Below, piece by piece: positions 5,182 through 31,765 of a stretch of DNA of 40,683 bases. This DNA comes from Oscillospiraceae bacterium. Lineage in GTDB: Bacteria > Bacillota > Clostridia > Oscillospirales > Oscillospiraceae. The stretch's first letter is position 1, and the number at the start of each line of letters is the position of its first letter. The translations under genes were made by a program, and so were the position numbers. The stretch spans positions 1 to 40,683 of the forward strand of contig JAFSJE010000063.1 of NCBI GenBank assembly GCA_017439425.1, in the 5' to 3' direction. The notes under the pieces are model-generated. The model was not told the DNA's origin. It was given only the letters and a program-made list of their open reading frames with translations, and did no database searches.

Positions 5182-5266
5182 TGGTGCGGGTAGCCGGACT
5201 CGAACCGGCACGGGTCGCCCCGAGAGATTTTAAGTCTCTTGTGTCTACCTATTTCACCATACCCGC
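5182..5266 (-). tRNA. tRNA-Leu (anticodon TAA), CCA encoded
   Basis: An 85-base gene in RNA sense: acceptor GCGGGTA pairs with TACCCGC, D-loop region GGTGAAATAGGTAGAC, anticodon loop CTTAAAA with TAA, a long variable arm typical of class II tRNA, the T-loop GGTTCGAGTCC, discriminator A and encoded CCA (5184-5182). The first base, 5266, directly follows the stop codon of the DUF896 gene, so the two are almost certainly cotranscribed. Confidence 0.97.
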
Positions 5267-7450: not shown

Positions 7451-7525
7451 TGGAGGTGGCACCCGGATTTGAACCGGGGAATCAGGGTTTTGCAGACCCT
7501 TGCCTTACCACTTGGCTATGCCACC
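7451..7525 (-). tRNA. tRNA-Cys (anticodon GCA), CCA encoded
   Basis: 75 bases in RNA sense: acceptor GGTGGCA pairs with TGCCACC, anticodon loop CTGCAAA with GCA, T-loop GGTTCAAATCC, discriminator T and encoded CCA (7453-7451). It stands 166 bases downstream of the four-tRNA cluster. Confidence 0.96.
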
Positions 7526-7691
7526 TCGTCGTCATGGAGGCGCTTCATTCCGTTTCGGCGCTGAAAGGGCGCGCGCCAAAACTGCACTCCGCGGCTCCAC
7601 TCCTCCTCTTAAAATCAAATGCACGCATTTGATTTTATAGAACAAGGTATATTAAATATTTTGCCGCCGATATTTTGTTATCGGCGGCAAA
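7526..7691. other. Palindrome-rich spacer between tRNA-Gly and tRNA-Cys
   Basis: No gene seen. It holds a perfect 12-bp stem with loop TTTTGT (7661-7690, arms TTGCCGCCGATA), a second near-perfect 12-bp stem (7611-7636, arms AAAATCAAATGC) and the palindrome GGCGCGCGCC (7568-7577). The first hairpin sits where a terminator of the tRNA cluster would be, but in the transcribed direction it is followed by AAAAUAUUUAAU, not a U-run. The remaining GC-rich part has the look of a dispersed intergenic repeat, which cannot be tested within this window. Confidence 0.55.
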
Positions 7692-7767
7692 TGGAGCGGC
7701 TTACGAGGCTCGAACTCGCTACCTCCACCTTGGCAAGGTGGCGCTCTACCAGATGAGCTAAAGCCGC
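7692..7767 (-). tRNA. tRNA-Gly (anticodon GCC), CCA encoded
   Basis: 76 bases in RNA sense: acceptor GCGGCTT/AAGCCGC, D-arm AGCTCATCTGGTAGAGC, anticodon loop TTGCCAA with GCC, T-loop GTTCGAGCC, discriminator T, encoded CCA. Last gene of a four-tRNA cluster transcribed from the promoter at 8039-8068. Confidence 0.97.
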
Positions 7768-7770
7768 AGA

Positions 7771-7846
<76 letters not shown>

Positions 7847-7849
7847 AAA

Positions 7850-7926
7850 TGGCGACCGAGAAGGGGCTCGAACCCTCGACCTCCAGCGTGACAGGCTGGC
7901 GTTCTAACCAACTGAACTACTCGGCC
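7850..7926 (-). tRNA. tRNA-Asp (anticodon GTC), CCA encoded
   Basis: 77 bases in RNA sense: acceptor GGCCGAG/CTCGGTC with one G-U pair, anticodon loop CTGTCAC with GTC, T-arm region AGGGTTCGAGCCC, discriminator G as expected for Asp, encoded CCA. Confidence 0.97.
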
Positions 7927-7930
7927 ATTA

Positions 7931-8007
7931 TGGTGGGAGCTACAGGGCTCGAACCTGTGACCTCCTGCTTGTAAGGCAGGCGCTCTAACCAGCTGAGCTA
8001 AGCTCCC
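7931..8007 (-). tRNA. tRNA-Val (anticodon TAC), CCA encoded
   Basis: 77 bases in RNA sense: acceptor GGGAGCT/AGCTCCC, D-arm AGCTCAGCTGGTTAGAGC, anticodon loop CTTACAA with TAC, discriminator A, encoded CCA. First gene of the cluster, about 32 bases from its promoter's -10 box. Confidence 0.97.
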
Positions 8008-10442: not shown

Positions 10443-10628
10443 TTAATAATAACGCTTGTTCTTATTCTTGCGAGCAGCCTCGGACTTCTTGCGGCGCTTT
10501 ACGCTGGGGCTCTGGTAAAATTCCTTCTTGCGGAGGTCAGCGAGGACGCCAGCCTTTGCGCAGTTTCTCTTAAAACGCTTAAGAGCACTGTCAAGAGACT
10601 CGTTCTCCTTAACGATTACTTCGCTCAT
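10443..10628 (-). CDS. rpsU: Small ribosomal subunit protein bS21
   Basis: A 61-residue, very basic protein with the bS21 layout: [21 protein letters not shown] at the N-terminus, [16 protein letters not shown] in the middle and a lysine/arginine-rich tail KNKNKRYY. bS21 sits on the platform of the 30S subunit near the anti-Shine-Dalgarno sequence. A GGAGGG site precedes the ATG and a perfect-consensus promoter lies 57 bases upstream of it. Confidence 0.97.
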
Positions 10629-24197: not shown

Positions 24198-24644
24198 TTA
24201 CATATATTTTCCTATCAGATCGCACAGCTCCCCGGCGCTCTTTACGTCCATCATCGCAATGAACGCCGTATCGTCGCCCGCGAGCGAGCCCGCAAGCTTT
24301 TCGATATCCATTCTGTCTATTGCGCTGCACGCCGCGGACGCAAGCCCGGGCAGGGTCTTGATGACCACGATATTCTGCGCGCAGGTGTAGCTTGTAACGC
24401 ACTCGTGGAATATCTTTCTGAGGCGCTCAGAGTGGTTTTCCACGTCCTCGGAGGGCGGCATATAGCGGTATGTGCCGTGGGTCGTGAGCTCCTTCACTAG
24501 TCTGAGCTCCTTTATATCGCGCGAAACCGTCGCCTGCGTTGCGTGAACGCCGACGGAATTCAGCTCTTCGATGAGCTGATTCTGCGTTTCAACCTCTTTT
24601 TCTGCGATTATTTCAAGGATTTTCTTCTGTCTGAGGTTTTTCAT
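24198..24644 (-). CDS. argR: Arginine repressor ArgR
   Basis: A 148-residue arginine-responsive regulator. The N-terminal winged helix shows QNQLIEELNSVGVHATQATVSRDIKELRLVK with the SRDI recognition segment; the C-terminal hexamerisation and arginine-binding domain has KTLPGLASAACSAIDRM and LAGSLAGDDTAFIAM. Its ATG overlaps the nadK stop in ATGA. No arginine biosynthetic gene is nearby, as usual for the argR-recN arrangement. Confidence 0.96.
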   Translation of the reverse strand: MKNLRQKKILEIIAEKEVETQNQLIEELNSVGVHATQATVSRDIKELRLVKELTTHGTYRYMPPSEDVENHSERLRKIFHECVTSYTCAQNIVVIKTLPGLASAACSAIDRMDIEKLAGSLAGDDTAFIAMMDVKSAGELCDLIGKYM

Positions 24645-25462: not shown

Positions 25463-26257
25463 TTACAGCCTCCCGTGCGCTTCGTCCACGACCGCCATGA
25501 CGTCGATCTCCTCGCTCTTCATGCCGTCGAGCACGAGCTTTGCTAAAAATTCAATATTTCCCTCCGGTCCCTTTATAGGCGACCAGGTTACGCCCTTGAC
25601 GGAAAATCCGCTCTTTTCGGCGTTTTCGATGAATTTCTCAATTACCTCGGCGTGGGTCTCTTTCTCTCGCACGACGCCCTTCTTGCCGACCTTGTCTTTT
25701 CCAGCCTCAAACTGCGGCTTTATGAGGGAATAGACAATGCCGCCGGGCGTGAGGACAGTAGAAAGCGCAGGAAAAATCAGCGCGGTAGATATAAAGCTCA
25801 CGTCTATCGTGCCGACCTCCGGCCTATCCGGGAACATATCCGGCGTTATGTAGCGGACGTTCGTGCGCTCCATAACCGTCACGCGCTCGTCCTGCCTCAG
25901 GCTCCACGCAAGCTGACCGTAGCCTACGTCGACAGAGTAAACGTGCCTTGCACCGTTCCGGAGCATCACGTCCGTAAAGCCTCCCGTGGAGGCGCCGCAG
26001 TCGATGCATACCTTGCCGCGAACGTCGCCGGCGAAATATTCAAGCGCGCGCTCGAGCTTCAGTCCGCCGCGGGAAACGTATTTCAGCTCGCCGCCGCGCA
26101 CCTCTATCGAGGCATTCTCGTCATAGCTCACACCGGGCTTATCCGCCTTCTGCCCGTTTATATAAACCTCGCCCGCCATGATGACGGCCTTCGCCCTCTC
26201 GCGGGAGGTGAAGTAGCCGCCGTCCACAAGCATCTGGTCAAGTCGTTTCTTTGGCAT
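25463..26257 (-). CDS. tlyA: TlyA family rRNA 2'-O-methyltransferase / hemolysin-like protein
   Basis: A 264-residue protein with an N-terminal S4 domain (RLDQMLVDGGYFTSRERAKAVIMAGEVYING) and an FtsJ-type methyltransferase domain with the SAM motif CIDCGASTGGFTDVMLRNGA. Mycobacterial TlyA methylates 16S and 23S rRNA; the role of the clostridial protein is inferred from that. Its start overlaps the end of dxs by 20 bases. Confidence 0.93.
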   Translation of the reverse strand: MPKKRLDQMLVDGGYFTSRERAKAVIMAGEVYINGQKADKPGVSYDENASIEVRGGELKYVSRGGLKLERALEYFAGDVRGKVCIDCGASTGGFTDVMLRNGARHVYSVDVGYGQLAWSLRQDERVTVMERTNVRYITPDMFPDRPEVGTIDVSFISTALIFPALSTVLTPGGIVYSLIKPQFEAGKDKVGKKGVVREKETHAEVIEKFIENAEKSGFSVKGVTWSPIKGPEGNIEFLAKLVLDGMKSEEIDVMAVVDEAHGRL

Positions 26258-28136
26258 TTTCGACCTCTTTTTTCTTCCGTTCCTTGATTCTGTCAGGGAT
26301 ATTCTCCTCTATCTCCCGCGCTACGCTCTCCGCGTCGAGCCCGTATTCCTCACGCAGGCGCTGTACCTTGCCGTGAGGCACGAAGCTGTCGCCGAGGTTG
26401 CGGAGAACGAGTCTTCTCGGGCTCTGCCCCGCCTTTACGAGCATCGAGGCGATCTCCTCGCCGACGCAGCCGCCGGATACGCACTCCTCAAGGACGTATA
26501 GCCGTCCGGTTTTCGATACCGAGGCGATTATCGCATCCTCGTCAAGCGGCTTTATGCTTCCGAGCTTCAAAACGTCGCAGTAAATTGATTTCTCTGCGAG
26601 CATATCCGCCGCCTTTACTGCGTCGTTTATGTTTATTCCGTAGGTAATTATAGTGAAATCCTCGCCTGTGCGAAGAAGCTTTGATTTATCAACTCCGCGC
26701 TCCCTGTACTCGCCCTCGCCGCCCTTCGGATAGCGCACCGCGACGGGGCCGGTGATATCATAGAGCGCAAACGAGAGCATATCCCTCAGCTCCGCGTAGG
26801 ACGCAGGGCAGAGCACCGTCATTTTCGGAACGGAACGCAGATAATTCACGTCGAAAACGCCGTGGTGCGTTTCGCCGTCCTCGCCCACAAGCCCCGCCTT
26901 GTCAACCGCGAGCACGACGTGCTCAGAGAGTATGCCGATGTCGTGAATAAGCTGATCGTATGAGCGCTGGAGGAAGGTCGAATACACCGCGAGCACCGGC
27001 TTCATTCCGCCGGCAGCGAGCCCCGCCGCCATACCCGCGGCGTGCTCCTCTGCAATTCCCACGTCAAAAAAGCGGTTCGGGTACGTTCTGCCGAAGCCGG
27101 ACAGTCCCGTTCCGGGTGCCATAGCAGCAGTAATCGCGCAGATATCCTTATCATCCTCGGCAAGGGAGGTCAGATACTCGCCGAAGCGTGTGGCAAAGGA
27201 CTCCTCAGGAGACGGAGTAAGCCCTGTTTCCTTGTCGAACGCGCCGACGCCGTGAAATGCCTCGGGATTTTTCTCCGCAGGCGCGTAGCCCTTGCCCTTC
27301 GTCGTTATCGCGTGGATTATGACCGGCCCCCTGAGGTCGCGGGCGACCTCGAGTGCGCGGATGACCTCACCCAGGTCATGTCCGTCTACCGGGCCGAGAT
27401 ATGAAAAGCCCCAGTCCTCGAACATTCCGCAGTTGAAAACACCGCGCTTTATGTTCTCCTTGAGCTTATGCGTAAATCTGTATACCCATTTGCCGCCCGG
27501 AACGGCGCTTGTCACCTTGCGGTAGATGGTTTTGAAGGTACGATAACCTCGCCTCAGGCGAAGACGCGTCAGGTACTTTGCCATTCCTCCGACGTTTTTC
27601 GCTATGCTCATGCCGTTGTCGTTGAGGATTACGATGAGCGGCTCGCGGCTCGCACCCGCGTCGCACAGCGCCTCATAAGCCATGCCGCCGGTGAGCGCAC
27701 CGTCGCCAAGCAGGGCGATAACGGAGTAATCCTCCCCCGCTATCGTGCGCGCCCGCGCCATGCCGAGCGCCTCCGAAACCGCCGCCGAGGCGTGACCGCC
27801 GATGAAGGCGTCGTGTTCCGACTCCGAGGGCTTCGGAAAGCCCGCGATTCCGCCGAAGGAGCGGAGAGTGTCGAATTTATCGCGCCTGCCGGTGAGCGCC
27901 TTGTGGATATAGCTCTGGTGACCGACGTCGAAAACGAGCCTGTCGCGGCTCGTATCGAAAACTCTGTGTATGGCGACGGTTATCTCCGCCACGCCGAGGG
28001 AGCTTGAAAGATGCCCGCCCGTTTTGCTGACGGCGTCGACAGTAAAAGCTCTCACCTCGTCAACAAGAGTTCTGAGTTCATCCTCTGTGAGATACTTAAC
28101 ATCTCTCGGGCTTTGAATTGAATCTAATATCGACAA
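26238..28136 (-). CDS. dxs: 1-deoxy-D-xylulose-5-phosphate synthase
   Basis: First enzyme of the MEP isoprenoid pathway, joining pyruvate and glyceraldehyde phosphate with thiamine diphosphate. The 632-residue protein has the GHASAAVSEALGMARA segment, the ThDP motif GDGALTGGMAYEALCDAG followed by NDNGMSIAKNVG, the IAEEHAAGMAAGLA catalytic glutamate region and a transketolase C-terminal domain. The start is TTG 28136 (SILDSIQSPRDVKYL is the family N-terminus), with AAGGAT upstream. Together with ispA on the other side of the OLE RNA it forms an isoprenoid supply cluster. Confidence 0.97.
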   Translation of the reverse strand: MSILDSIQSPRDVKYLTEDELRTLVDEVRAFTVDAVSKTGGHLSSSLGVAEITVAIHRVFDTSRDRLVFDVGHQSYIHKALTGRRDKFDTLRSFGGIAGFPKPSESEHDAFIGGHASAAVSEALGMARARTIAGEDYSVIALLGDGALTGGMAYEALCDAGASREPLIVILNDNGMSIAKNVGGMAKYLTRLRLRRGYRTFKTIYRKVTSAVPGGKWVYRFTHKLKENIKRGVFNCGMFEDWGFSYLGPVDGHDLGEVIRALEVARDLRGPVIIHAITTKGKGYAPAEKNPEAFHGVGAFDKETGLTPSPEESFATRFGEYLTSLAEDDKDICAITAAMAPGTGLSGFGRTYPNRFFDVGIAEEHAAGMAAGLAAGGMKPVLAVYSTFLQRSYDQLIHDIGILSEHVVLAVDKAGLVGEDGETHHGVFDVNYLRSVPKMTVLCPASYAELRDMLSFALYDITGPVAVRYPKGGEGEYRERGVDKSKLLRTGEDFTIITYGININDAVKAADMLAEKSIYCDVLKLGSIKPLDEDAIIASVSKTGRLYVLEECVSGGCVGEEIASMLVKAGQSPRRLVLRNLGDSFVPHGKVQRLREEYGLDAESVAREIEENIPDRIKERKKKEVENAKETT

Positions 28137-28148
28137 ATAAATACATCC

Positions 28149-28688
28149 TTATTTTTTCTTTTTACCTCCGCCGGTGAAAAAGGCGGAGACCTTTCCCGCA
28201 AGGAGAACTATCTCCGTATTGCGGTTTATGGCGAGGCTCTTTCCGAGCGCCTTGCCGCCGATGGTAAGCCCGGCGACGATGCCGGTCACTATAATCTGTG
28301 TAATTACGGCTGAGAGCGAAAAGTCCCGTGTGAAATTCGCGGCGAGCACCGCTGCGGTCGCACCCGAGACGATGCCTGAGATATCGCCGACGACGTCGTT
28401 GCATATTGAGCTTACTCTCTCAGAGGCGCGCACGAGCTTAATCGCCTCGCTCGCGCCGTACTCCTTATGGCTCGCCATGGAGTGAAACGGAGCCTCGCGC
28501 GCCGCTGTCACCGCGACGCCGAGCATATCGAACACGATACCGATGGCAATGAAGCTCAGAAGCAGCAGCGAGGCGACAATATAGCCCGCGCCGTCAAGTA
28601 TCTCGCTTGAAACGAGCGAGAATACCATACTTGTTGCTACAGCGATGAGGGTTATCGAAATTACCCAGCGCCAGTTTGTTTTACGCAT
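28149..28688 (-). CDS. oapA: OLE-associated protein A (CorB/DUF21-like membrane protein)
   Basis: A 179-residue membrane protein with hydrophobic segments at about 7-29, 34-60 and 124-146, a less hydrophobic one near 103-118, and a lysine tail (GGGKKKK). The conserved segment REAPFHSMASHKEYG...RVSSICNDVVGDISGIVSGA contains a DxxxD motif (D98, D102), which as far as I recall is conserved in OapA. Such proteins are often labelled CorB-like magnesium transporter. Identification rests on position: directly after the structured RNA and directly before dxs, exactly the ole-oapA-dxs order known from Bacillus halodurans. OapA binds OLE RNA and holds it at the membrane. AAAGGT precedes the ATG. Confidence 0.85.
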   Translation of the reverse strand: MRKTNWRWVISITLIAVATSMVFSLVSSEILDGAGYIVASLLLLSFIAIGIVFDMLGVAVTAAREAPFHSMASHKEYGASEAIKLVRASERVSSICNDVVGDISGIVSGATAAVLAANFTRDFSLSAVITQIIVTGIVAGLTIGGKALGKSLAINRNTEIVLLAGKVSAFFTGGGKKKK

Positions 28689-28713
28689 TTTAAGCTACCT
28701 TTTTATTATATGT

Positions 28714-29374
28714 ACGGCGGCATATCGCGGAGTAAACCTTACGGCATAGGTCGGGTCGGATTTCCCGCGGCGCCGCCTCCCGTTGCCGGTGGAGGAGGTT
28801 TCCCCTTGGGGCGCCGCACGCGCCGTTGCCCTGCGCGTTACCCGATTGCCACTGAGTCCGTACTGCAATCCCCCGCAATACCTATTATCGACAGCCTAGA
28901 TGTTTTCCATAACGGAGCGAACCGTCTCTTTAGCCTCTTTTGCAGAAAATATTTCATAGAGATATCGACCCTGCGATCCCGGCCGGGGACCGCTTGCCGC
29001 TTAAGCTCTCCAATCCGCTCTTTCCCACTCAAGGCAGGCTACTCTGCACACAGCACTGAGAAAAAAGAATTCTGTCAAAACGCACCGCAATACAGGTTCA
29101 ACCCCGGTCCGTAATGAGATCGCATACCGCAAATGGGAGTACGCCTCACCACAGAGTCGGGTCTCCACACCGGCCGGGTCGAATTCCCGATGCCATTCGG
29201 GGACGCCCGTCCGATGCAGGCTAAGACGATCAAAGTTCGCATAGACCTCCCTCCAGCATCCACCCGGAACTGGCATTCCAAGCAAACACAAGAGGCTTCA
29301 TAGATGTGCCCTTCAAAGGATTTTTAGGCCCTTCCTGGGAGACAGGGCTCCGACTAGGATACTGCACCGCCGTA
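28714..29374 (-). ncRNA. ole: OLE RNA (ornate large extremophilic RNA), about 660 nt
   Basis: A 780-base stretch without a protein gene, with a strong promoter at one end and oapA at the other. The proposed RNA starts near 29374; its 5' ACGGCGG (29373-29367) pairs perfectly with CCGCCGU (28720-28714) at its 3' end, closing the molecule as expected for a large structured RNA. It is rich in local GC stems with A-rich joints and lacks the hallmarks of RNase P RNA, tmRNA, SRP RNA and 6S RNA. Size (about 0.6 kb) and the order ispA-RNA-oapA-dxs-tlyA-argR-recN match the known OLE locus. OLE forms a membrane ribonucleoprotein with OapA linked to magnesium, cold and alcohol stress in B. halodurans. 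I did not align it to a covariance model. Confidence 0.85.
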
Positions 29375-29381
29375 ATTTTTT

Positions 29382-29410
29382 ATTATACATAATATTTATT
29401 CATTTTTCAA
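29382..29410 (-). promoter_or_regulatory. OLE RNA promoter
   Basis: On the minus strand TTGAAA (29410-29405), 17-base spacer, TATAAT (29387-29382), with an upstream TATG before the -10. It would start the RNA about 7-8 bases downstream, just before the closing P1 strand, and also serve oapA-dxs-tlyA-nadK-argR-recN. Confidence 0.87.
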
Positions 29411-29427
29411 GCCCAAATATGAATAAA

Positions 29428-29456
29428 CGCGGAAGAATCAAAAAGACTCTTCCGCG
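29428..29456 (-). terminator. Terminator after ispA
   Basis: Minus-strand RNA: CGCGGAAGA (29456-29448), 11-base loop, UCUUCCGCG (29436-29428), then UUUAUUC. It separates the xseA-xseB-ispA transcript from the OLE promoter, so OLE is not simply read through from ispA. Confidence 0.82.
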
Positions 29457-29468
29457 CAAAATGAACAT

Positions 29469-30329
29469 TTACTCTCTCTCACCCATCGTGTCCGCGAGCT
29501 TGAGTAGGAAGGCGTATGGCCCGATCCAGTGGGCGCTGAAAAGCGCAGATATCGCGCGCTCGGTGTACTCGCCGACGAGCTTCTTCGACTGGTCTACGCC
29601 GACAAGGTCGACGATAGTGATCTGTCCCTCCTTCTTCGCGCTCTTTCCTGCGTCGATTATATCGTCGCGGATGGAATAAGCGTGGCCGAGGTTAGTAGCG
29701 TAGTCGCGCGCAACCTCGAAGTAGAAGGGGTCAACCTCTCTTCTGCCCTGCGATGCGTAAACGCCGATCTCGCCCGCGGCTCTGAGGATGGCGCAGGTCT
29801 TTTTGTCGCCGATATCCTTCAGCTCGCGGTTTGTTGTAGTGGTCTTGGGGCGGGTATCGAGATACTGCCCCTTGCAGAGCTCTCTCTCCCCCGCTGCCTG
29901 CGCGAGAGTTCTCGCCGCCGCAAGAGCCGCGCCCTTGCCCTCGTCCGGGAACATCTCACCCGCGGTGAGGATCGTGCGGAATGCCGCCGCCTGCAGAGCG
30001 TCGCCCGCGATAAGCGCCGTATCAGCGCCGAATTTCATGTGATTTGTCGGAATGCCGTTCCGTATCTCGTCGTTGTCCATTATCGGAAGATCGTCGTGAA
30101 TGCGGGAGTAGACGTGGAGCATCTCGACCGCGCAGGCGAAGTCTATCGCCTCGTCGGGCGCACCGCCCGCAGCCTCGCAGAATTTAAGAGTGAGTATCGG
30201 GCGCAGACGTGTGCCGCCGGACATTAGGGAGTATTTCATCGCCTCCTCAATGCCGCCGCCGTTAAAATACGTTCCGAGTCTGCCCTCGATCAGTCTGCGC
30301 ATCTCCGCGTATTCTTCTCTGAAGCTCAT
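29469..30329 (-). CDS. ispA: Polyprenyl (farnesyl/geranyl) diphosphate synthase
   Basis: Condenses isopentenyl diphosphate with allylic diphosphates to give the C15 (or C20) precursor for undecaprenol and quinones. The 286-residue protein has the first aspartate-rich motif in RIHDDLPIMDND and the second in YSIRDDIIDAG, plus the MSGGTRLRPILTLKFCEA substrate segment. It overlaps xseB by ATGA, the usual xseA-xseB-ispA order. Chain length cannot be decided from sequence alone. Confidence 0.95.
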   Translation of the reverse strand: MSFREEYAEMRRLIEGRLGTYFNGGGIEEAMKYSLMSGGTRLRPILTLKFCEAAGGAPDEAIDFACAVEMLHVYSRIHDDLPIMDNDEIRNGIPTNHMKFGADTALIAGDALQAAAFRTILTAGEMFPDEGKGAALAAARTLAQAAGERELCKGQYLDTRPKTTTTNRELKDIGDKKTCAILRAAGEIGVYASQGRREVDPFYFEVARDYATNLGHAYSIRDDIIDAGKSAKKEGQITIVDLVGVDQSKKLVGEYTERAISALFSAHWIGPYAFLLKLADTMGERE

Positions 30330-30568
30330 GTCTCGTCCTCCTCGATGAATTTCGATTCTACCGGCTCGCCGTCCGGCCCCTTGCGGAGCTTCACGACTCT
30401 CTGCTCCGCCTCCTCGAGCATTTTTGAGGCGCCCTTTATAAGCGCGGTGCCCTCCTCAAACAGCCCGAGCGCGTCGTCGAGGCTCTTGTCGCCCTTTTCA
30501 AGCGCGCGCACGATCTCCTCAATGCGCTGCATGGAGTCCTCAAAGCTGAGTTTTTCAGTTCTTTTCAT
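30326..30568 (-). CDS. xseB: Exodeoxyribonuclease VII small subunit
   Basis: An 80-residue helical protein with the XseB signature LSFEDSMQRIEEIVRALEKGDKSLDDALGLFEEGTALI followed by a coiled C-terminal helix. It binds XseA to form the exonuclease that processes single-stranded DNA. It lies 3 bases after xseA and overlaps ispA. Confidence 0.95.
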   Translation of the reverse strand: MKRTEKLSFEDSMQRIEEIVRALEKGDKSLDDALGLFEEGTALIKGASKMLEEAEQRVVKLRKGPDGEPVESKFIEEDET

Positions 30569-30571
30569 ACC

Positions 30572-31765
30572 TTACCTCACAATCGCCTCTATGGTATCCT
30601 TTTTGAGGCTTATTGTTATTTCATCGCCGGGCTTTACGTCCTTTGCGGACTTTATTACCTTGCCTTCGGCGGTTTTTGCTATCGAATAGCCGCGCCCGAG
30701 CACCTTCAGCGGGCTCAGCGCGTCGAGCTTTGAGGCGGAAGCGGCAAATCTCTCCCTCGCGCGTGAAATGCTCATTCCCACAGCAGATGTGAGCCGCGCT
30801 TCGAGGTGCGTGAGGTTCTGCTTTCTGTCCTCAACGTAGTTCTTCGGATCCTGCATAACGCGCTTTTCCTTGAGCGCGTCGAGCCTCTGACGGCTGCGCT
30901 TCAGCCCGCTCATAACGGCATTAAAGCTTCTCGCTTCCGCTGAGTCGAGGTATTCAAGCAGCTCAGAATAGTCAGGCGCGCAAAGCTCTGCGCCGTTAGA
31001 CGGCGTAGCGGCTCTCAGATCAGCCACAAAGTCGGATATCGTGACGTCCGGCTCGTGACCGACGGCGCTTATTATCGGGATCTCACTCTCGTAGATCGCG
31101 CGCGCCACGCGCTCATCGTTGAACGCCCACAGATCCTCGATAGAGCCGCCTCCGCGGCCGACTATGAGAACGTCTGCAATATTATGGCGGTTAGCATAGC
31201 GTATCGCGCCGACGATCTCCGGCGGCGCCTCCACGCCCTGCACTCTTACGGGCAGCAGGAGTATCTTGCCTATCGGCCAACGCTTTCTGAGCACGCGGAT
31301 TATATCGTGTACAGCCGCGCCGGCGGAGCTTGTGACGACTCCGATCCGCATCGGAAAGCGCGGGATCGGCTTTTTGTGGCTCTCGTCGAAAAGTCCCTCG
31401 TTATAGAGCTTCTCCTTGAGCTGCTCAAAGGCGATGGTGAGGTCGCCAACTCCGTCCGGTGTCATGCTCGAGACGTAGAGCTGATACGCGCCGTCGCGCG
31501 GATAGACTTGCACTCTGCCGAAGGCTATGACCTTCATGCCGTTCTCCGGCCGGAAGCGCAGAGAGCCTGCCGCAAAGCGGAACATTACGCATTTCAGCGC
31601 GCTCTCAGAGTCCTTTATCGTAAAATAGTGATGCCCCGAGGGGTAGAGCTTGTAGTTTGAAATTTCGCCGCGGACGTAGACATTCTGAACGAAAAGGTCT
31701 GCGTCAATGAGCTCCTTGAGGTGAGCGTTCAGCTGGCTGACTGAGAGAATCTGTCTTTCATCCAT
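30572..31765 (-). CDS. xseA: Exodeoxyribonuclease VII large subunit
   Basis: A 397-residue catalytic subunit. The N-terminal OB-fold starts ILSVSQLNAHLKELIDADLFVQNVYVRGEISN; the catalytic core has RIGVVTSSAGAAVHDIIRVL, VGRGGGSIEDLWAFNDE and ISAVGHEPDVTISDFVADLRAATPS. The C-terminal helical arm and the LGRGYSIAKTAEGKVIKSA motif complete the protein. It overlaps the upstream TsaD-like gene by 8 bases. Confidence 0.97.
   Translation of the reverse strand: MDERQILSVSQLNAHLKELIDADLFVQNVYVRGEISNYKLYPSGHHYFTIKDSESALKCVMFRFAAGSLRFRPENGMKVIAFGRVQVYPRDGAYQLYVSSMTPDGVGDLTIAFEQLKEKLYNEGLFDESHKKPIPRFPMRIGVVTSSAGAAVHDIIRVLRKRWPIGKILLLPVRVQGVEAPPEIVGAIRYANRHNIADVLIVGRGGGSIEDLWAFNDERVARAIYESEIPIISAVGHEPDVTISDFVADLRAATPSNGAELCAPDYSELLEYLDSAEARSFNAVMSGLKRSRQRLDALKEKRVMQDPKNYVEDRKQNLTHLEARLTSAVGMSISRARERFAASASKLDALSPLKVLGRGYSIAKTAEGKVIKSAKDVKPGDEITISLKKDTIEAIVR

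Follow-up and report, generated by a model that had tools for sequence, protein, structure and literature searches.

OLE RNA is a large bacterial RNA whose biochemical function is not established. The window, i.e., the whole stretch of 40,683 nucleotides that was analyzed, comes from an Oscillospiraceae bacterium (assembly GCA_017439425.1, contig JAFSJE010000063.1), and contains a block of 780 nt without a gene between the ispA stop (29469) and the oapA start (28688), as originally proposed. On the minus strand of this block, a cmscan search finds the Rfam covariance model of OLE RNA (RF01071, gathering score 50 bits) at 390.6 bits (E 1.9e-111), with the whole model covered (1-616 of 616), and no second copy was found in the assembly (2.30 Mb, 95.5% complete). 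In addition, 149 of the 158 Rfam pairs with both bases in the window are standard, which is in line with the conserved secondary structure that had been expected. Judged from its sequence, the block holds a genuine OLE RNA, a known class of RNA, beside oapA. Five open reading frames of 62-134 aa lie wholly inside the block and would suit an mRNA leader or a coding sequence instead of a structured RNA, but the covariance model score and the covariation described below contradict such a reading, and its probability is negligible. The features of the locus are listed in Table 1.

Table 1. Features of the OLE RNA-oapA locus and of related genes in the window.
Feature	Position	Strand	Basis or remark
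rpsU, ribosomal protein bS21, reported OLE partner	10443..10628	-	PF01165, 75.1 bits
argR	24198..24644	-	Pfam
dxs	26238..28136	-	Pfam DXP_synthase_N, 2.3e-108
oapA, 179 aa, D98/D102	28149..28688	-	adjoins OLE RNA; homologue search and alignments
OLE RNA (RF01071)	28701..29386	-	cmscan, full model; P1-to-P1 transcript predicted at ~660 nt
P1 3' strand (GCCGCCGU)	28714..28721	-	pairs with 29366-29373
L9.3 palindrome GGCC (dimer bridge B3)	28981..28984	-	sequence
J6/7 GGAG (k-turn 1b strand)	29163..29166	-	GGAG[AG][CU] motif in relatives
P6, reported bS21-binding stem	29169..29215	-	covariance model alignment
Clade-specific J5/6 hairpin replacing the short J5/6 strand	29218..29248	-	comparative covariation
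J4a/5 AUC-UAU-GAA, 5' half of the reported k-turns	29297..29305	-	most frequent in relatives: AUC-GAU-GAA
L4 region CUAAAAAUCC (dimer bridge B1, A-A pairs)	29318..29327	-	L4 assigned by position
P1 5' strand (ACGGCGGU)	29366..29373	-	pairs with 28714-28721; compensatory changes in relatives
Sigma-70-type promoter TTGAAA-17-TATAAT	29382..29410	-	11/12 consensus score; recurs in relatives
Terminator-like hairpin 3' of ispA	29427..29457	-	number of such sites at chance level
ispA (polyprenyl synthetase)	29469..30329	-	neighbour annotation
xseB (30326-30568) and xseA (30572-31765)	30326..31765	-	neighbour annotation

The surroundings resemble those of other RF01071 loci, with xseA-xseB-ispA, dxs, and argR nearby; links of ArgR to OLE RNA have been reported, and the dxs gene predicted to follow oapA is indeed present. 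Further neighbours are nusB and genes for an S4/FtsJ protein, NAD kinase, a RecN-like protein, Asp23, and SpoIIIAH. Elsewhere in the window, five tRNA genes form a cluster at 7454-8007 and a sixth is located at 5185-5266. Like the OLE RNAs of H. halodurans and C. acetobutylicum, the RNA of the window matches the model end to end, has the L4, P6, L9.3, and P13 regions, and adjoins oapA. Unlike the RF01071 description, it has longer P7 and P8 loops, a J4a/5 bulge that reads UAU rather than GAU, a hairpin at 29218-29248 in place of the short J5/6, and a P1 helix that is missing from the Rfam structure line.

An OLE profile match was found at 79 of 80 OapA loci, and an Rfam match at all 17 of the closest ones. 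Among 197 genomes sampled from the order, 69 have OLE RNA, and the window RNA scores below most of these; the RNA is present in 5 of the 15 genomes listed for the family of the window (f1) and in 3/3 for its genus. The 112 OLE profile loci, after the removal of nine truncated or split ones and the addition of the window, gave 104 rows and 99 distinct RNAs, and 35 further members of the order enlarged the set to 134. OLE RNA and oapA lie close together in most relatives, while in L119 the RNA (1806-2473) and oapA (5001) are ~2.5 kb apart. The contig L091 begins 567 nt before an OapA homologue (568-1074); no OLE match occurs in the 567 nt available, and the RNA may lie elsewhere or be lost.

The two ends of the transcript had been predicted to pair over 7 bp. 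The pairing of ACGGCGGU with GCCGCCGU comprises 8 bp, namely the earlier 7 bp and one G-U. This helix, P1, is real and shows compensatory changes among relatives. P1 was read at fixed offsets from conserved anchors in 96 usable RNAs of the 99 (three were left out), which correspond to 80 distinct sequences. Standard pairs fill 511 of 640 cells (79.8%; shuffle maximum 68.3%), both sides have changed in 133 cells (shuffle maximum 72), and slid registers give 32-36% standard pairs. The pair types of P1 are no more numerous than in the shuffles, 115 of 500 of which reach the same count. In Oscillibacter-like RNAs, P1 is visibly extended (GCUAAGCGGCGGC with GCCGCCGGCUUAGC) and reaches ~13-14 bp in L084, L097, and L103 compared with 8 bp in the window.

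A consensus promoter of its own, which had also been proposed for the RNA, is supported by its recurrence upstream of OLE in relatives: 63 of 99 OLE upstream regions score at least 9/12, compared with a mean of 11.2 and a maximum of 18 after shuffling. Within 28000-29600, three promoter-like sites occur versus 1.4 expected. The recurring promoter supports an OLE-oapA unit that would be independent of xseA-xseB-ispA. The terminator claimed to follow ispA exists as a hairpin, but two such sites are found versus 1.8 by chance, and it is weak evidence. At the other end, the gap between the P1 3' strand and the oapA start codon is 25 nt, with no terminator-like site listed in it. In a permissive scan that had no chance control, 8 of 16 OLE-oapA gaps examined in relatives have a hairpin with a T-rich tail, which was set aside as evidence. 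The gaps of the close relatives L050, L053, L054, L055, L057, and L061 measure ~190-410 nt and contain terminator-like hairpins by the same scan. The sequence TATAATAAAAA at 28700-28710 of the window, 3' of OLE and before oapA, repeats the -10 region upstream of OLE and may be a second start or a coincidence.

The downstream protein had been described as a CorB/DUF21-like membrane protein with a DxxxD motif. It is indeed OapA, as it adjoins OLE RNA and has the DxxxD motif. The 179-aa query has 34 matches among the loci searched, two of them being itself, and D98 and D102 are invariant in an alignment of 17 OapA proteins and in one of 34 that includes Halobacillus and Halolactibacillus. The pair mutated in H. 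halodurans OapA is reported as D100/D104 (PM1). By the motif, D98/D102 would correspond to this pair, and no difference from known OapA was found in these alignments. The CorB/DUF21 part of the description stands only as a weak CNNM resemblance (12.6 bits, E 0.11) below the Pfam cut-off of 28.4 bits, which agrees with the weak homology of OapA to CNNM reported by Fernando & Breaker (2024). This resemblance is shared with the MpfA/CorB (CNNM) Mg2+ exporters, from which the window OapA differs in its 179 aa and in having no Pfam domain over the cut-off; a sequence comparison of OapA with solved structures gave nothing convincing (best E 0.92). The closest OapA, at 99% identity, is from the metagenome-assembled genome RGIG5036, an Oscillospiraceae member from roe-deer rumen, and the next matches belong to uncultured Oscillospiraceae and their kin, several of rumen origin or, where named 'Lapin', apparently of rabbit origin. 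By these sequence relationships, the host is a rumen Oscillospiraceae, in keeping with the gut clostridium originally proposed.

Among the published dimer contacts, L4 forms bridge B1 and L9.3 forms bridge B3 (Kretsch et al. 2025), and the window has, at the level of sequence, both the A-run CUAAAAAUCC and the GGCC palindrome. In the L4 region, CUAAAAAUC is found in 48/48 RNAs with a J5/6 hairpin of the window type and in 61/77 RNAs with a short J5/6 (both classes are described below), while 47 of the 48 window-type RNAs have a four-base palindrome in L9.3. Complementarity between the L5 and L6 loops of at least 4 nt is seen in 40 of 134 RNAs (mean of 36.7 with swapped partners), and was dropped as dimer evidence for lack of a signal beyond the swapped pairs. 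P6 is reported to bind bS21 (Wencker et al. 2025).

The main departure of the window RNA lies in J5/6, where 30 nt are inserted between P5 and P6 in the Rfam alignment. The measured J5/6 span in the 99 distinct full-length RNAs is 12-15 nt in 48 and 26-75 nt in 51, three of which (family f8) look unrelated. The set of 134 RNAs consists of 48 window-type hairpins (the window and 47 of 133 related RNAs), six hairpins of family f10, three of f8, and 77 short RNAs. The window-type inserts are mostly hairpins in the conserved frame GGGA-stem-UGC. Sporobacter termitidis is an example of a cultured species with a hairpin. Covariation was counted for pairs 3-6, with the two anchor pairs excluded, in 46 of the 48 rows (24 distinct sequences; L062 and L068, which have long inserts, were left out). 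In the 24 distinct sequences, 80 of 96 cells are standard and 40 carry changes on both sides; all three measures lie above every one of 500 shuffles, which do not keep relatedness (shuffle means 42.9%, 17.1, and 12.7), and slid registers give 18-21% standard pairs. Folded alone, the window hairpin is no more stable than its shuffles (z -0.15), and therefore the support for it is comparative. A separate J5/6 hairpin is found in genus g38 of f10 (L173, L174, L175, L178, and L179), with loops containing CCUCAA in 5/5, a J4a/5 that reads AUC-UGU-GAA, and no YbxF-type OapC found.

The window lacks the short J5/6 strand that is reported to form part of k-turn 1a and has the hairpin in its place; membership of the OLE class does not rest on this strand. 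The literal motif UUAAG occurs in J5/6 of 48/77 short RNAs and in 1/57 hairpin RNAs, and was rejected as a mark of the short class because of its presence in only 48/77; since 29 of the 77 lack it, the term 'canonical' is not used for it. No J5/6 insert was found in the published OLE text searched for inserts and hairpins, a search that did not extend to the exact term 'J5/6', and no publication pairing OLE RNA with Oscillospiraceae was found in the literature searched. The OLE variants named there concern J6/7 to P8, P7-P9, or the OapB site. The J5/6-hairpin OLE RNA is thus apparently an undescribed structural variant as far as that text goes, even though it is not proven to be new. Variants 1 (TANB77) and 2 (RF39) of Fernando & Breaker (2024) are similar to it in being gut-associated, in their clade-specific departures, and in largely missing OapC, as reported. 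In contrast, those variants shorten or lose P7-P9 or the OapB site, whereas in the window P7-P9 is not shortened, an OapB homologue is encoded in the genome, and the change is in J5/6.

The J5/6 region is of interest for the binding of OapC. K-turn 1a, the reported OapC site, is formed by J4a/5 and J5/6 (Lyon et al. 2022), k-turn 1b by J4a/5 and J6/7 (Kretsch et al. 2025), and both are discussed by Wencker et al. (2025). As the J5/6 strand is replaced by a hairpin, the k-turn 1a switch is probably gone or changed in the clade. The J6/7 strand is retained, with GGAG[AG][CU] in 48/48 window-type, 6/6 f10, 2/3 f8, and 66/77 short RNAs. The J4a/5 form AUC-GAU-GAA is found in 70 of 77 short RNAs (two unparsed) and 3/3 f8 hairpins, compared with 5/48 window-type and 0/6 f10 RNAs; GAU alone occurs in 11 of the 48 window-type RNAs. 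Of the 132 RNAs parsed with a pattern that requires GA[AC] 3' of the bulge, every one reads GAA; the two short rows unparsed by the pattern read AUCGAUGAA in their printed letters. The only parsed short RNAs without GAU are L110 and L112, and both genomes lack OapC, so the drift of J4a/5 may follow the loss of OapC and not the hairpin. Moreover, AUC-GAU is present in nearly all short RNAs without UUAAG, and this makes the UUAAG strand less plausible as the sole constraint on J4a/5. One reading of these patterns is that two lineages may have abandoned k-turn 1a and retained 1b.

The original prediction had named oapB and oapC as further genes to look for in the host genome. An OapB homologue was found as a 96-aa open reading frame between map and infA; searched from its second ATG (89 aa), it matches the OapB structure 7k9b at E 7.3e-7, and it has no Pfam match. 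Together with bS21, this makes the host similar to H. halodurans, and the difference lies in OapC (YbxF), which is essential in H. halodurans and was not found in the 95.5% complete assembly. The lone L7Ae match of the host, below the cut-off and located at nusA-ylxR-x-infB, is YlxQ by its best structure match and its profile scores (YlxQ 90.7 vs 13.2 bits), and the rpoC-rpsL interval is intact with no ybxF in it. YlxQ reportedly does not replace OapC in H. halodurans (Fernando & Breaker 2024). With OapC not found and its reported RNA strand rewritten, the earlier conclusion that the host has a working OLE complex goes further than these data.

The absence of OapC from the assembly, the low OLE score within the order sample, and the ten f1 genomes of the 15 listed that have no OLE match would fit a decaying RNA in a host-associated lineage that is heading for loss. 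Against such decay stand the intact pairs, the strong covariation, the OapA residues kept invariant, the recurring promoter, and the lack of a replacement, as no CNNM (MpfA-type) protein over the cut-off was found in the host genome; this makes decay very improbable. MpfA/CorB proteins are reported to be anticorrelated with OLE (Fernando & Breaker 2024).

OapC was scored across genomes by classifying L7Ae genes according to their neighbours and rpsL loci. Outside the order sample it was judged at rpoC-rpsL, in some cases without rpoC seen in the ~1.4 kb upstream of rpsL. OapC was present, absent, or not assessable in 17, 20, and 11 window-type genomes, 0, 6, and 0 of f10, 3, 0, and 0 of f8, and 59, 9, and 9 short-type genomes. 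Hence, 17 of 37 assessable window-type genomes keep OapC, and 9 of 68 assessable short-type genomes lack it. All 16 assessable genomes of the 22-row subclade of the window are without OapC, and the assessable Oscillibacter and Dysosmobacter hairpin genomes keep it. A whole-genome L7Ae search in 30 genomes from outside the order sample (22 scored absent and eight not assessable) found no YbxF-type protein; 20 of their 22 L7Ae loci are YlxQ (at least 68 bits), and L357 and L359 are neither. Nine of the 30 have no L7Ae match at E 0.05, YlxQ included, which indicates that such searches can miss. By its profile scores, the one f10 match left unclassified (G096) is not YbxF either. Within these bounds, OapC appears to have been lost in the subclade of the window, where the OLE ribonucleoprotein (RNP) would run without it.

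The raw counts for hairpins of any lineage are 26 absent, 20 present, and 11 not assessable, compared with 9, 59, and 9 for short RNAs (Fisher 1.2e-6). As the rows are not independent, the proposal that the J5/6 hairpin goes with OapC loss was kept as a clade observation only. In a tree of the 134 RNAs built without the J4a/5 and J5/6 columns, J5/6 type changes at least five times and OapC at least seven times; tree-aware independent pairs of J5/6 type and OapC are not significant (median p 1), and thus no causal link between the two is claimed. A version based on GG after UGC in P6 (OapC present in 13 and absent in 3, otherwise 4 and 17; p 0.0002) was rejected for the same non-independence.

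Another reading is that the window has an ordinary full-length OLE RNA, with a neutral expansion in J5/6, a k-turn as in H. halodurans, and an OapC that was missed or replaced by YlxQ. The 17 of 37 window-type genomes with OapC are consistent with this, as are the 29 of 77 short RNAs without UUAAG, which suggest that the strand tolerates change, the expanded P7 and P8 loops of the window RNA, and the incomplete assembly. However, in two separate lineages most hairpin RNAs have a J4a/5 other than AUC-GAU, the rpoC-rpsL interval of the host is intact without ybxF, and YlxQ reportedly does not substitute for OapC in H. halodurans, so neutral expansion is considered rather unlikely. The locus is probably an OLE RNA-oapA unit with the published functions carried over, a clade-specific J5/6 change, and apparent loss of OapC in its subclade. 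A bolder version is put forward tentatively: a large branch of the Oscillospirales would have an OLE subclass of its own, with the k-turn 1a switch abolished by the covarying hairpin, a J4a/5 free to drift, a retained k-turn 1b, and, in the window subclade, an RNP that runs without OapC.

By analogy with the published work on H. halodurans and C. acetobutylicum, the OLE RNA of the unit would be made from its own promoter, closed by P1, and dimerized via L4 and L9.3. OapA would hold the RNA at the membrane, and the RNA with OapB and bS21 would form a stress-adaptation RNP involved in metal-ion adaptation, which may do the jobs given to MpfA-type Mg2+ exporters in other Bacillota. The clade-specific step would be the replacement of the J5/6 strand, and with it of the P5/P6 to k-turn 1a switch, by the hairpin, with the k-turn 1b strand (J6/7) kept.

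The published models differ on the OapC k-turn strand, which is J5/6 in Lyon et al. (2022) and J6/7 in Kretsch et al. (2025). Hairpin RNAs with a retained J6/7 occur both in genomes that have OapC and in genomes that lack it; they offer a direct test of this question and indicate which components the RNP may do without. If k-turn 1a is truly abolished, they are a natural experiment on the OapC site, and the OapC of hairpin genomes would need to use k-turn 1b or act elsewhere.
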